Shown here piece by piece: positions 1 through 27,380 of a DNA stretch of 33,113 nt (position 1 is the first letter of the stretch; the number at the start of each line of letters is the position of its first letter). The position numbers and the translations under genes are program-made. The DNA lies in assembly GCA_947460385.1 (NCBI GenBank), contig CANHGT010000006.1, positions 1 to 33,113 on the forward strand, written 5' to 3'. The DNA comes from Alphaproteobacteria bacterium. Its GTDB lineage: Bacteria > Pseudomonadota > Alphaproteobacteria > WRAU01 > Hepatincolaceae. Under the pieces are notes generated by a model. It saw nothing but the letters and a program-made list of their open reading frames with translations, ran no database searches and was not told the DNA's origin.

Positions 1-373
1 AGCTAAAGCTAGAATTATTTATAGTTGCTTCGCAACTTGCGTGTCTTTATAAGGCACAAGCTTAGTGCTACGCACGATGTTTATACAGTTGCTTCGCAAC
101 TTGCGTGTCTTTATAAGGCACAAGTTTAATAGGCTACGCCTATAGTCTATATATAGTCGCCATGCGACTTGCGTGTCTGTTCAGCACAAGTTATGCTAGC
201 TAAAGCTAGAATTATTTATAGTTGCTTCGCAACTTGCGTGTCTTTATAAGGCACAAGCTTAGTGCTACGCACGATGTTTATACAGTTGCTTCGCAACTTG
301 CGTGTCCATACTGGCACAAGTTTAATAGGCTACGCCTATAGTCTATATATAGTCGCCATGCGACTTGCGTGTC
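1..373. repeat. Hairpin-module array on a 197-bp tandem duplication
   Basis: Positions 1-197 recur from 198 onward with a period of 197 bp, differing by a few bases and one 1-bp indel near 307-313; the second copy breaks off after about 373. Each copy holds three submodules of about 65 bp. Every submodule has a short perfect hairpin, an AT-rich spacer of 11-13 bp, a second perfect hairpin, then TTGCGTGTC, a short variable stretch and (usually) GGCACAAG. First hairpins are at 1-10, 65-75, 129-143 and 198-207, 262-272, 325-339. Second hairpins are at 24-36, 88-100, 155-169 and 221-233, 285-297, 351-365. The window starts inside the array, so its true length is unknown. The rest of the gap to the recO stop (374-467) holds one degenerate hairpin (GTTG...CAAC near 391-408) and nothing else I recognise. 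A reading frame at 262-456 crosses the repeats and is not credible as a gene. Confidence 0.9.
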
Positions 374-467
374 TTTTATATTTTGAATATGTTGTCGTTG
401 CTTCAACTTCTTTAGCTTCCTACACTCTGCCTGTTTCTTCTATTAATACAAAATAATGTAACTATAG

Positions 468-1184
468 CTAAAACAAGGTAGCTAGATTTTTTATCAACAA
501 ATTACGCATATTAGGAATTTTTTTGTTATACTCTGTGCAGAAAAATTGTAAAAAATGAGTTGTTATATCTAGTAAATTTAAGATATCTTGAATATTGTTG
601 GGAGTAGTTTTGTTAGTAATAAATTGCGGAATAATAAATAATTTATCTTTATAAGGTTCTCCTACTGTTTTACTAACAGATTTACCACTTTTTGGAGATA
701 AATAGTAAATATCTGGGGCATCAGATACTACGCACTTAGAAAAATCTAAGCCAAAGCCAATATTATTTAATAATAGTAATTCCCAATTAGCGTATAGTAA
801 TAAAAAATCATCTTTAGTTAAATTCGCAATCATGTCTTTGCTATCTAAATAAAAAGGTGTGCTAATCTCTTGCATCGGAATGAATTCTTCTATTAATGAA
901 CACATGGTGGTAAGTGCTAATAACTTGGTATTATTATAAAAAATATTAGCAAGATTACTTTCTTGTAAGTCTACCTTTAAAATGCCTAATTGTTCTTCTA
1001 AACGCACCATTTTAGTTATGCTTAAAATATTGCCTAAAGATAAAACATGTCTAATTTTACTACTGTTGGCTCCTTTCAATAAACCTTTCTGAATGCCATG
1101 CTCTTTTGTAAATAAAGTTAAAATATTGCTACTATCACCAAATTGATATTTTGCAATTAAGATAGCCTCATCATGAATTATCAT
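468..1184 (-). CDS. recO: DNA repair protein RecO
   Basis: RecO helps load RecA on SSB-coated single strands with RecR in the RecF pathway, and anneals strands. The 238-residue product has the family's usual length. It opens with the OB-fold start seen in alphaproteobacterial RecO (DEAI, then FGDSSNILTLFTKEHG, then KGLLKGANS) and has the L-x-x-GN region. The C-terminal half carries the family stretch YYLSPKSGKSVS followed by GEPYKDKLF. The usual zinc-binding cysteine cluster of some RecO proteins is not evident, as in many alphaproteobacterial versions. The ATG lies inside the end of metG (14-bp overlap), so the two are probably translationally coupled. The hairpin array follows the stop codon. 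Confidence 0.93.
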   Translation of the reverse strand: MIIHDEAILIAKYQFGDSSNILTLFTKEHGIQKGLLKGANSSKIRHVLSLGNILSITKMVRLEEQLGILKVDLQESNLANIFYNNTKLLALTTMCSLIEEFIPMQEISTPFYLDSKDMIANLTKDDFLLLYANWELLLLNNIGFGLDFSKCVVSDAPDIYYLSPKSGKSVSKTVGEPYKDKLFIIPQFITNKTTPNNIQDILNLLDITTHFLQFFCTEYNKKIPNMRNLLIKNLATLF

Positions 1185-2712
1185 TGCTGTCTATATATTT
1201 TTCAAATACTATTACAGGGGCATTAACTACGTGATTATTTTCTATAAGGCTGTTAAAATCAATAAAACTACGCTTTGTTTCATTAATATTAAGTTGATCT
1301 AAAATCTTTTTAGCCGAACTTGGCATAACGGGTTGCATTAGCAGTGATACTCTACGTAAAATTTCGCACACCACATATAATACACTAAGTGCTTCTTCGT
1401 GTTGCTCTGCTTTTATTAATTTCCAAGGAGCCATTTCATTAATGTAAAAATTACCATATTTAATTAGTTGCATTACGCAGTCTATATAGTTTAATAAGTC
1501 TTGATTATCTATATAGTTTCGGCATTTTTCTAATGTGTGATTAGTGTCATTTATGATTTCTGTTTGCTTCTCACTTAATTTTACATTTACCAAAGTGCTA
1601 TCAAAAGATTTGTTTAAGATAGAAATAGTGCGTTGCAACAAGTTTCCATATTCATTAGCTAATTCATTGTTAATGCGAGATACAATATTATTGTGTGAAA
1701 TATCTCCATCGCTACCAAAAGATATCTCTTTAAATAAAAAATACCTTATGTTATCTAGTCCATATTTATCTATTAACTGTTTGGGATCTATAGCATTACC
1801 TAAAGATTTAGAAATTTTTTCCCCTTCATTTAGCCACCAACCATGTGCAAATATTTTCTTTGGTAGTGGTAAATTGGCTCCCATTAAAAATGCAGGCCAA
1901 AAAACAGCATGAAATCTAATTATGTCTTTGCCAACCACATGAATTGCTTGCTCCCAATAATTCTGTAATTGCTCGGTTTTAGCAGGATAGCCTAAGGCAC
2001 TAATATAGTTTGTGAGTGCATCTAACCAAACATAAATAACATGTTTGTTGTTATTTGGCACTGGAATGCCCCAATTAAAATTATCTCTAGATATAGATAA
2101 ATCTTTCAAGCCTGATTTTACAAAACTTACCACCTCATTATACCTAGATTTAGGAGAAATAAAATTGGGATTCTTTGCGTAAAAATCTAAAAGTTTATCT
2201 TGAAATGATGATAATTTAAAAAAATAACTATCTTGTTCTAACCACTCAACCGTAGCTCCTGATGGAGCAAGCTTTGTACCATCTTCTTTAGTGGTTAACT
2301 CAGCTTCTGCGTAGAAGCATTCATCTCTTAATGCATACCAACCTGAATATTTATCTAAGTAGATACAGGAGTTGTCTTCTAGTGTTTGCCATAAGTGTTG
2401 AACTGCTTTTTTGTGCCTTTCTTCTGTTGTTCTAATAAAGTCGTTATTACTAAGATTTAAAAGCGGTGTTAATTCTTTAAAAAATACAGATACTTCATTA
2501 ACAAATTCTTGCGGGGTTTTATTTTTTGCAATGGCTGATTTTTCTACTTTTTGCCCATGTTCATCGGTGCCTGTTAAAAAAATAGTTTCATATCCATCTA
2601 AATGTTTAAATCTAGATAAAATATCTGCCGATAAGCTAGTATAAGCATGACCAATATGAGGGCGGTCGTTTACATAGTAAATAGGGGTAGTAATGTAGTA
2701 AAATTTTTTCAT
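1171..2712 (-). CDS. metG: Methionyl-tRNA synthetase
   Basis: Charges tRNA-Met with methionine in the cytoplasm. The 513-residue class I synthetase has the HIGH signature at about residues 19-22 and the KMSKS loop as KISKS at about 299-303. The connective region has CFYAEAEL rather than a full four-cysteine zinc knuckle, as in the shorter alphaproteobacterial type, and there is no C-terminal tRNA-binding (Trbp111-like) domain. I place the start at the ATG at 2712; a TTG two codons upstream (2718) is also in frame, but the product then starts MKKFYYITTPIYY as expected for the family. The 3' end overlaps recO by 14 bp. Confidence 0.95.
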   Translation of the reverse strand: MKKFYYITTPIYYVNDRPHIGHAYTSLSADILSRFKHLDGYETIFLTGTDEHGQKVEKSAIAKNKTPQEFVNEVSVFFKELTPLLNLSNNDFIRTTEERHKKAVQHLWQTLEDNSCIYLDKYSGWYALRDECFYAEAELTTKEDGTKLAPSGATVEWLEQDSYFFKLSSFQDKLLDFYAKNPNFISPKSRYNEVVSFVKSGLKDLSISRDNFNWGIPVPNNNKHVIYVWLDALTNYISALGYPAKTEQLQNYWEQAIHVVGKDIIRFHAVFWPAFLMGANLPLPKKIFAHGWWLNEGEKISKSLGNAIDPKQLIDKYGLDNIRYFLFKEISFGSDGDISHNNIVSRINNELANEYGNLLQRTISILNKSFDSTLVNVKLSEKQTEIINDTNHTLEKCRNYIDNQDLLNYIDCVMQLIKYGNFYINEMAPWKLIKAEQHEEALSVLYVVCEILRRVSLLMQPVMPSSAKKILDQLNINETKRSFIDFNSLIENNHVVNAPVIVFEKYIDSNDNS

Positions 2713-12253: not shown

Positions 12254-13660
12254 ATGACAGATAACAACCAAAATCAAGATACTACAAGCAGTAAAAGAAT
12301 TCAAAATATTATAATAGGAATAATAGTAATAACTTTCGGCTTTACTATATTTTGTTGTACATATCTTATATGGAATACTCCAAGTGTAGATGACTATTGG
12401 CAGTCTTATACAATTAATGTAGATTCTAAAGAGAAAAACACAATAAATCCAGAGGAACTATCTAAATTCTTAGATACAAGAATTAAAGATGTTAATAACA
12501 CTTTACAAATAGCCTATACCTTAAGATTGAATATGTTAGAAAATTGGCTAGCAGTACTAGGCTTATTGTTAACTTTCTTTGGGGTTCTAGTTCCTATTTT
12601 TCTTTATATTAAAGGAGAGAAGCTAGACAAAGAGATTGAAAAGATTGAAAAAATAAAAAAAGATGCCGAAGAGCAATTAAATGATATTATTAATGCAAAA
12701 AAGAAAATAAAGCTTGAAATAGAAGAACAGTTAAAGGAAGCAAAAAGTATTGTAGACAATGAAATTAGTAATTTGCAATCTAAAGTAGACACTTTTAAGA
12801 CAGACGCTGAAACAACGATATTAATATTTAAAGACGAAGCACAAAAAAGCATGCAAGAAGTTGAAGGGTTAAAAACACAAGCCGAAGATTTCAAAAAGCA
12901 AACTGTTGAATCTACCAAAGAATTTGATAATAAGCAAAAAATAGCAAATTTATTCTTTGAATTCCAGAATCTTTATAATAAGCAAGAATATCTACCTGCC
13001 ATTATTAAGCTTAATGAGATAATAGATTTAGATAAAAAAAATGCAGATGCTTATAATAACATGGGAAATTCTTACGGGAAATTAGCAGGTATCACAGAAT
13101 ATGAAAAAGGTAAAATTGAGTATTACAATAAAGCCATTGAGAATTACAACAAAGCTATAAAATTAAATCACAACTTAGCACGTTCATATAATAATAGGGG
13201 AGCGTGTTATAGTGATTTAGCAGATATAACAGAAGATGAAAAAGCTAAAAAGTTTCATTACAAAAAATCCATTGAGAATTTCAATAAAGCTATAGAATTA
13301 AATCCAAAAGATGCACTTCCATATAATAACAGGGGTGAGCTTTATATTTATATGGCGGAAAGGAATAAAGAAACAAGCAAAGATGATGCTAATTACAAAC
13401 AAGCATTTAGTGATTTAAGCCAAGCCAAGATTTTAGACGATAAATTGGGCAATGGTGAACCCTACAATAATTTAGGTATGTACTATGCTAGTTTGTATAT
13501 AAATACTCATGATAATAAAGAGGCTAATTATATTGAAGCCATTAAGAATTACGATGAAGCAATTGCATTAGGGAATGAAAAAGCCCAAAGTTTAAAAACG
13601 GCACTTGAAGAGGAACGTACGAACGAAAAAAATACTGAAGAAAAAAATACGACAGGCTAG
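12254..13660 (+). CDS. Membrane protein with coiled coil and TPR repeats
   Basis: The 468-residue product has two membrane segments, about residues 19-42 and 96-118, flanking a roughly 50-residue loop. A long coiled coil follows (about 122-235, Glu/Lys-rich heptads), then at least four tetratricopeptide repeats (about 240-440; repeated pattern AYNNMGNSY...AIENYNKAI, SYNNRGACY...SIENFNKAI, PYNNRGELY). By topology both N-terminus and TPR domain should be cytoplasmic. The repeats carry 8-10-residue insertions between helices. I do not recognise an orthologous family with known function. The gene stands alone, with 152 bp before it and a repeat-containing gap after it. TPR units suggest a protein-binding scaffold; a host-interaction role would be speculation. 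Confidence 0.8.
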   Translation: MTDNNQNQDTTSSKRIQNIIIGIIVITFGFTIFCCTYLIWNTPSVDDYWQSYTINVDSKEKNTINPEELSKFLDTRIKDVNNTLQIAYTLRLNMLENWLAVLGLLLTFFGVLVPIFLYIKGEKLDKEIEKIEKIKKDAEEQLNDIINAKKKIKLEIEEQLKEAKSIVDNEISNLQSKVDTFKTDAETTILIFKDEAQKSMQEVEGLKTQAEDFKKQTVESTKEFDNKQKIANLFFEFQNLYNKQEYLPAIIKLNEIIDLDKKNADAYNNMGNSYGKLAGITEYEKGKIEYYNKAIENYNKAIKLNHNLARSYNNRGACYSDLADITEDEKAKKFHYKKSIENFNKAIELNPKDALPYNNRGELYIYMAERNKETSKDDANYKQAFSDLSQAKILDDKLGNGEPYNNLGMYYASLYINTHDNKEANYIEAIKNYDEAIALGNEKAQSLKTALEEERTNEKNTEEKNTTG

Positions 13661-13738: not shown

Positions 13739-13822
13739 TAATTTGTATATTTAGCCCAAGAAAGTTGAATAATGCTAAAAACCCCCACTCTTATCTATGT
13801 ATAGCTAACTTTACTATATTTC

Positions 13823-13865
13823 CGAACGGCTGTTTTGCAAAACTCCTTTAGTTTATTACCGTTCG
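13823..13865. repeat. Nested inverted repeat between convergent genes
   Basis: CGAACGG (13823-13829) pairs with CCGTTCG (13859-13865), enclosing a 12-bp perfect palindrome, GTTTTGCAAAAC (13832-13843). No T-run follows on either strand, so it is not a standard terminator. It could be a remnant of a palindromic element. Nothing else stands out in the 287-bp gap 13661-13947 apart from the 23-bp repeat. Confidence 0.6.
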
Positions 13866-13947
13866 CCTTGTATTACTAGCATCAAATTAAAATAGTTTAG
13901 ATATATAAGTAACCCATAACATGGTTGTATTATAAACAGAATGATTT

Positions 13948-26321: not shown

Positions 26322-27380
26322 TTATATTTTATCTTTATGTTGAAACAAGTAATTATTGGAAGCTAAGTCTTTTATTTTAACATAGCCTAATATTTCTAAA
26401 TAAGCAAAAACCCTCTCAATATTTTCGGGCATTATTTCTATAAAAATGATAGGCTTATATTTTAGTAATGTTTCTTTTGCTCCTTGTAATACTTCATACT
26501 CAAAGCGTTCTACATCACATTTTATAAAATCTATAGTAGGAGGATTTTCTTGTTGTATCACTTCATCTAATGATTGAATTTTGAGTTGTCCATGTTCAGA
26601 ATCTTCAGCTACATGAATATGTTGACTTCCAAAGTTGAGTAATCCACCGTACCAATCAGTGCGAGGATCAGAACTATGGTAAAAAGTACCAAAAGAGTTT
26701 GCTTTTCCTAAGGCAATATTGAATGTTTTGATATTGGAAATATGATTCAATTCTATGTTTTTTTGTAAGATATTAAAAACGTGTTCTTGAAGTTCAAATG
26801 CATAAATCATTTTAGCATTATTTTTTAAAGCAAAATACATGCTATGATTTCCGATATTAGCTCCAAGATCTAAAATTATAGCATTAGGTACAATATATTC
26901 TTCTAATAATTTTAATAATTTAAATTCAAAAAAATTATTGTTATCAACTATATCTCTACTTATAAGATCGGACGGATAATGAGGCAAATAAAATTTTACA
27001 CCACTACTATGATGAAAAATACCATCGGGCATGGAGATTCTTTTTAGTATAGATTCTAAGTAATTTTTAATTCCTCTACTATTATAGAAAATACCATCAG
27101 GCATTAAAATTAGGTCTTTAACTAATTTATCATTGCTTTTACTTATTATATTTAACTTTTCACTAATTTCACTAAGTAAATTTAACTTTTCATTGCTTTT
27201 ACTTATTATATTTAACTTTTCACTAATTTCACTAAGTAAATTTAACTTTTCAATGCTTTCAAATTTATCATTGATTTCATTCAACTTTCTTCGTGTTTTT
27301 TTAAATTGAACTGCAATAACATTTAGAGAGACAGCTACCAGTGTAATTAGTATGCATATTAAAATAATTATAAAGAACAT
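26322..27380 (-). CDS. FkbM-family methyltransferase with membrane anchor and coiled-coil repeats
   Basis: FkbM proteins are SAM-dependent O-methyltransferases, often acting on surface glycans or secondary metabolites. The 352-residue product begins with one membrane segment (about 2-25), then a coiled coil (30-88) with two 20-residue repeats, KLNLLSEISEKLNIISKSNE at 45-64 and nearly the same at 65-84. Next is a duplicated MPDGIF...SxGxKxYL segment (from 93 and 117); the second copy is the normal FkbM N-terminal segment (SSGVKFYLPHYPSDLI). The catalytic fold follows from about 165: LDLGANIGNHSMYF (motif I), YAFELQ, NIALG, IDFIKCDVERFEYEVLQGA and a closing EI. The anchor and repeats are additions to the family core. 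Confidence 0.9.
   Translation of the reverse strand: MFFIIILICILITLVAVSLNVIAVQFKKTRRKLNEINDKFESIEKLNLLSEISEKLNIISKSNEKLNLLSEISEKLNIISKSNDKLVKDLILMPDGIFYNSRGIKNYLESILKRISMPDGIFHHSSGVKFYLPHYPSDLISRDIVDNNNFFEFKLLKLLEEYIVPNAIILDLGANIGNHSMYFALKNNAKMIYAFELQEHVFNILQKNIELNHISNIKTFNIALGKANSFGTFYHSSDPRTDWYGGLLNFGSQHIHVAEDSEHGQLKIQSLDEVIQQENPPTIDFIKCDVERFEYEVLQGAKETLLKYKPIIFIEIMPENIERVFAYLEILGYVKIKDLASNNYLFQHKDKI
27130..27250 (-). repeat. Exact 60-bp tandem repeat inside the FkbM gene
   Basis: Positions 27131-27190 and 27191-27250 are identical base for base, and a third copy starts but diverges after a few bases (27251-27260). The unit is 60 bp, so copy-number change adds or removes 20 residues of coiled coil without a frameshift. 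Confidence 0.95.

Follow-up and report, generated by a model that had tools for sequence, protein, structure and literature searches.

The window, which is the whole 33,113-nucleotide stretch of DNA analysed here, comprises the entire contig C6 starting at its base 1, in a 1.09 Mb assembly of 66 contigs that is ~92% complete. We found that positions 1-373 are a mosaic hairpin array, of which the window holds the right-hand part; the array runs off the contig's left end, in keeping with the original prediction that it continues past the window. Five complete units of 64-68 bp each and two partial units make up this part, all arranged head-to-tail, and they are followed by a truncated copy of a dispersed element (P) and by a recO-like gene, the nearest gene:

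1-22: tail of an earlier unit
23-86, + strand: complete unit 1, with A-hairpin (loop TTC), box CTTGCGTGTC, linker TTTATAAG, GCACAAG and V2 hairpin
87-154, + strand: complete unit 2, with A-hairpin (loop TTC), linker TTTATAAG and V3 hairpin
155-219, + strand: complete unit 3, with A-hairpin (loop CAT, compensatory C-G pair), linker TGTTCA and V1 hairpin
220-283, + strand: complete unit 4, identical to unit 1
284-350, + strand: complete unit 5, with A-hairpin (loop TTC), linker CATACTG and V3 hairpin
351-373, + strand: last partial unit, with A-hairpin (loop CAT) and box CTTGCGTGTC, whose last base is also the last of the array
375-466, + strand: P element (positions 14-109 of 110 bp), its left end truncated by the array
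468-1184, - strand: recO-like gene (Pfam RecO_N and RecO_C), its 3' end facing the array

Read in the direction of the box, a unit consists of GCACAAG, a V-hairpin, an AT-rich stretch, an A-hairpin and the box CTTGCGTGTC, and is followed by a linker of 5-9 nt. Tandem Repeats Finder reports a period of 64 bp with 4.8 copies (score 330), and the array is richer in GC than the window (0.42 versus 0.29). The six modules of about 65 bp first described correspond to six A-hairpins, of which only five belong to complete modules, the remainder of the array being partial units. The A-hairpin consensus is AGTYGC-NNN-GCRACT with four main loops (TTT, TTC, TAT and CAT), and the fourth pair of its stem switches between T-A and C-G in a compensatory manner with few intermediates. 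V-hairpins come in three types (GCTAGC-TAAA-GCTAG; GTGC-TAC-GCAC and close forms; ATAGGC-TAC-GCCTAT) and linkers in six (ATTCT, TGTTCA, CGCTG, CATACTG, TTTATAAG and AATTACATG). These parts combine in many ways, so that the arrays are mosaics: TGTTCA occurs with V1, V2 and V3, ATTCT with V1 and V2, CATACTG with V1 and V3, and TTTATAAG with V2 and V3.

The near-identical 197-bp duplication noted earlier is borne out by alignment of positions 1-176 with positions 198-373, in which 172 of 174 aligned bases are identical, with three internal gap bases in addition. The main difference between the two copies is the linker, which is TTTATAAG in one and CATACTG in the other. The two ends of a unit are imperfect inverted repeats, and these box arms are its most conserved part. 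By inspection, GCACAAG and CTTGCGTGTC can pair at seven positions, leaving an unpaired T and CG on one side, and one unit could on this basis be drawn as a clover-leaf. Array termini fall mostly at GCACAAG on the left and at CTTGCGTGTC on the right.

No gene explains the array, as had been thought: no open reading frame of 100 aa or more overlaps it, and the recO-like gene ends at 468. We found no tRNA on it, and no Rfam match either at the gathering threshold or at E 0.5. With no overlap found for any of the three, we rejected an open reading frame, a tRNA or an Rfam family as its identity. The absence of unique spacers also held, since the linkers are only 5-9 nt long and belong to six recurring types; CRISPR arrays, in contrast, have unique spacers.

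We counted perfect hairpins, defined as a stem of 5 or more with a loop of 3-4, and found nine in the 373-bp array. In 1000 dinucleotide shuffles the count averages 0.83 and never exceeds five, which makes the array ~11-fold enriched over shuffled sequence; the rest of the window has 0.23 per 373 bp. The two hairpins per module originally described are joined by a third, weaker one (GTGTC-linker-GGCAC) that requires a G-U pair and thus forms better on the + strand. The reverse strand of 1-373 carries many GC-GNA-GC triloop hairpins (GCGAAGC, GCGTAGC), eight of them in the window array. Triloops of this kind are a class of very stable DNA mini-hairpins. In DNA folding, both strands of the array exceed their dinucleotide shuffles in stability (z -3.05 and -2.72), whereas in RNA folding neither strand does (z -1.47 and -0.68). 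This difference speaks for palindromes that are maintained as DNA, or through template-directed repair of imperfect palindromes, rather than for a single large structured RNA, and it weakly disfavours the structured-RNA option that had been offered. Individual hairpins may still act as a terminator or mRNA-end element.

Next to the array we identified P, a MITE-like palindromic element of 110 bp that is dispersed over the genome (~30 matches at E 0.1) and has terminal inverted repeats of ~26 bp and TATAG...CTATA ends. Two models detect the copy at 375-466: an nhmmer profile built without it (E 1.4e-8 in 103 kb, 31.3 bits) and covariance model R3 (E 5.5e-4). The array stands in place of P's first 13 bases and probably splits the element. 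The flank just left of the array on contig C52 ends in sequence resembling those 13 bases; since the left flank of the C50 array shares part of this sequence, the match is only suggestive. A decayed relic of the repeat on C38 sits inside another P copy. The P profile has no match on 1-373, so the array unit is without detectable homology to P. Further P copies lie at window positions 13799-13906, at L119:2236-2438 and at L136-L140, and tandem or closely spaced copies occur on C18, C13, C4 and C31; P has no Rfam match in the loci tested. Weaker matches in two other genomes, G013 (L153, L156, L159 and L162) and G002 (L154, L157, L160 and L163), have P's length and architecture and a core like CTCATGTAGNNTTACTACACNTCGCC...TCCTAGTGTCAA, with terminal arms that differ and stay complementary. 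These P-like elements are possibly a widespread palindromic element family.

In the assembly, the intact repeat is found at eight contig ends (C6 and seven others) and nowhere else, and no intact single dispersed units were found in the genome. Four ends are right boundaries in box orientation (C6, C36, C47 and C59) and four are left boundaries (C52, C11, C1 and C50). Units within the pairs C1-C47, C11-C36 and C50-C59 differ by a mean of 1.2-1.4 edits and those of every other pair by at least 8.1, and unit similarity inside each contig end is above chance (p 0.012). Because three left and right ends pair so closely, the eight ends are probably four arrays, each broken by the assembly. The C52-C6 pairing is the least certain of the four, made by elimination and on shared variants, and its units differ by 10.8 edits. 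Each array has private variants and unique flanks. Two decayed relics lie inside contigs, at C38:7221-7280 (E 1.9e-5) and at C7:22839-22880, and imply age and turnover of the repeat. Copy numbers are not certain in an assembly that is ~92% complete and breaks at every intact array.

The search across the whole genome and its relatives proposed with the original prediction thus returned eight contig ends and two relics in the array's own genome and nothing in the relatives searched. We found no array by blastn in 57 other genomes (three of the same family), no match of covariance model R2 in 18 relatives, and no match of the array DNA in the plasmids and phages searched. Among 385 genomes of the class, the array occurs in its own genome only, apart from a 29-bp match in G138 that we took as chance. 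We likewise took as chance the 60 single matches of the exact box pattern across unrelated phyla in a public genome collection, and treated as chance two single matches of the box with a 5-nt linker in viral contigs. We could show neither a target-site duplication nor, given that relatives carry recO in a different gene neighbourhood and gene order, an empty site. The best reading is that the repeat, absent from the relatives searched, is lineage-specific.

The genes flanking the repeat include those for a YceG/MltG-like protein (C52), the recO-like protein of the window (C6), a thioredoxin (C36), a solute-binding protein (C11), an EVE-domain protein (C47), ribosomal protein S21 (C50) and a POT transporter (C59). 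Relics included, 11 of 12 flanking genes have their 3' end toward the repeat (p 0.003); the sole exception is the solute-binding protein gene on C11, which has the repeat on its upstream side. Five of the six inferred loci are between convergent genes (p ~2e-4 against the window's own intergenic space). REPs of other bacteria are found mainly in convergent or unidirectional intergenic spaces (PMC3733652).

We consider it fairly probable that a palindromic repeat of the REP/BIME kind, lineage-specific and non-autonomous, has formed this satellite-like cluster, having settled at gene 3' ends and expanded there through local tandem duplication. A small number of intergenic sites, most of them between convergent genes, would have received the first copies, two of which would have landed within or beside an older P element. 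Tandem duplication would then have enlarged each site, through replication slippage at hairpins or unequal recombination, and shuffling of units inside each array would have led to the private variants. The copies could have been dispersed by a lost transposase acting in trans, or by rare ectopic copying. The arrays may also act mildly as bidirectional terminators or as hairpins at mRNA 3' ends, although this account does not depend on it. The RAYT/Y1 transposase (PF01797) is absent from the ~92% complete assembly, while five control genomes score; DDE_3 and DDE_Tnp_1 transposases, which with Y1 make three families tested, are absent from it too. Of the palindromic mobile repeat family initially suggested, the family stands, with eight contig ends, two relics and an intergenic location. 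Its mobility we only infer, and about four arrays and two relics are few for a mobile family.

An explanation at the RNA level would have multi-hairpin 3' ends terminate convergent transcription in both directions or protect mRNAs, with the hairpins under selection. Placement at 3' ends and between convergent genes would fit, as would hairpin pairing kept despite sequence change, the + strand preference that the G-U pair gives the third hairpin, and a count of two terminator-like sites within window 1-1300 where 0.7 would be expected, both of them array sites on the + strand. Yet promoter avoidance alone yields the same placement bias, T runs after the stems are at most weak, the repeat is at only a handful of loci, and the whole array's RNA folds no better than shuffles (z -1.5 and -0.7); we regard this explanation as unlikely. 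A recombination array, in which CTTGCGTGTC-linker-GCACAAG would be a site-specific recombinase core or the clover-leaf an attC-like single-strand site, with V-A blocks exchanged as cassettes, would account for the highly conserved box arms with unpaired bases on one side, for array ends mostly at the two arms, and for the shuffling of blocks. However, linkers of 5-9 nt are unlike the fixed overlap of a recombinase, GCACAAG and CTTGCGTGTC do not match the attC R-box consensus, and the supposed cassettes hold no gene of 100 aa or more, which leaves this reading distinctly improbable. The recombination or replication site named in the original prediction has little support, given inverted-arm linkers that vary from 5 to 9 nt and several dispersed copies.

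Since every one of the eight intact copies sits at a contig end, in an assembly of 66 contigs, repeats might also have been mis-chained there and the 197-bp duplication made by the assembler. Contig breaks are, however, expected at a real short-period repeat, decayed relics lie within contigs C7 and C38, and the arrays differ from one another in their private variants and have unique flanks, so we give an assembly artefact almost no credence; the exact copy number within an array may nonetheless be wrong. An array that occurred once and was missing from close relatives had been taken in advance as the mark of an artefact or a chance expansion. Of these two marks, absence holds for the relatives searched, but the repeat occurs more than once, and a single assembly chimera is hard to accept because there are four divergent arrays and decayed relics.

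The REP/BIME-kind repeat that we favour shares with BIMEs and REP clusters of E. coli and other enterobacteria, and with REPINs of Pseudomonas, its short palindromes, mosaic structure and interchangeable joining motifs, as well as its intergenic location at gene 3' ends in small arrays. It differs in that the array hairpins lack the GTAG foot tag, the genome lacks a Y1/RAYT transposase, and no intact single dispersed units were found. BIMEs and REPINs also alternate in orientation and occupy hundreds of sites, whereas this array is head-to-tail at about four sites. Like GTAG REPs, the repeat has short intergenic palindromes at several loci and a mosaic of interchangeable palindromes and joining motifs. 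The unit strand of the eight array ends is free of GTAG; its reverse complement CTAC is present in the V2 and V3 hairpin loops, away from the foot. Membership of the GTAG REPs fails because tag and transposase are missing. CGTC and GACG each occur zero times in all eight array ends, and membership of the CGTC REPs fails because that tag is missing. CGTC-tagged REPs, including the Rickettsia palindromic elements (PMC3733652), are likewise palindromic and without a dedicated transposase, but they are dispersed single copies, while the repeat here forms tandem arrays and was not found inside genes.

By analogy, the nearest described counterpart of the tandem arrangement is Wolbachia VNTR-105, which has two 23-bp hairpins per 105 bp (PMC3287509). 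VNTR-105 and VNTR-141 are intergenic and tandem, with one or two hairpins per period, near-identical copies and internal deletions, and their authors propose slippage at hairpins and concerted evolution (PMC3287509). The likeness is one of description, and in contrast to these VNTRs the present repeat has three module positions with recombining alleles, at about four loci. Among MITEs and other palindromic dispersed elements, the comparison is with P of this genome, which has many copies and terminal inverted repeats; the array adjoins one P copy and a relic lies inside another. The attC sites of integron cassette arrays have an R-box consensus and gene cassettes, and we found neither here.

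A further reading takes the unit as a single-strand clover-leaf DNA that moves and grows tandemly without a known transposase family, and whose ends could have originated in the tRNA-Leu(UAG) anticodon arm. AGACACGCAAG...CTTGTG is common to this tRNA gene (L109:1202-1286, on C17) and the array unit's reverse strand, and the gene holds the genome's only other CTTGCGTGTC outside the arrays. The match to the array is 11 nt exact, and 18 of 1000 shuffled tRNAs score as well; the likeness may be chance and serves as a lead only, and we hold the reading to be very doubtful. If its ends were tRNA-derived, the unit would be a bacterial tRNA-derived hairpin satellite.

With our analysis, a small AT-rich genome gains a mosaic tandem palindromic repeat specific to its lineage, which shows how such repeats occupy gene 3' ends and break short-read assemblies. 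It is a modest result in repeat biology, and the arrays could serve as strain-typing markers. If the repeat spreads without RAYT, it would provide a test case for palindromic-repeat movement in genomes without an obvious transposase. Elsewhere in the window, repeats of other kinds lie within coding sequence: positions 27123-27261 hold a 60-bp tandem repeat (30-bp subunits) inside an open reading frame on the - strand (26322-27380), and a 135-bp DNA repeat lies inside the coding sequence of a TPR-repeat protein at positions 12254-13660.
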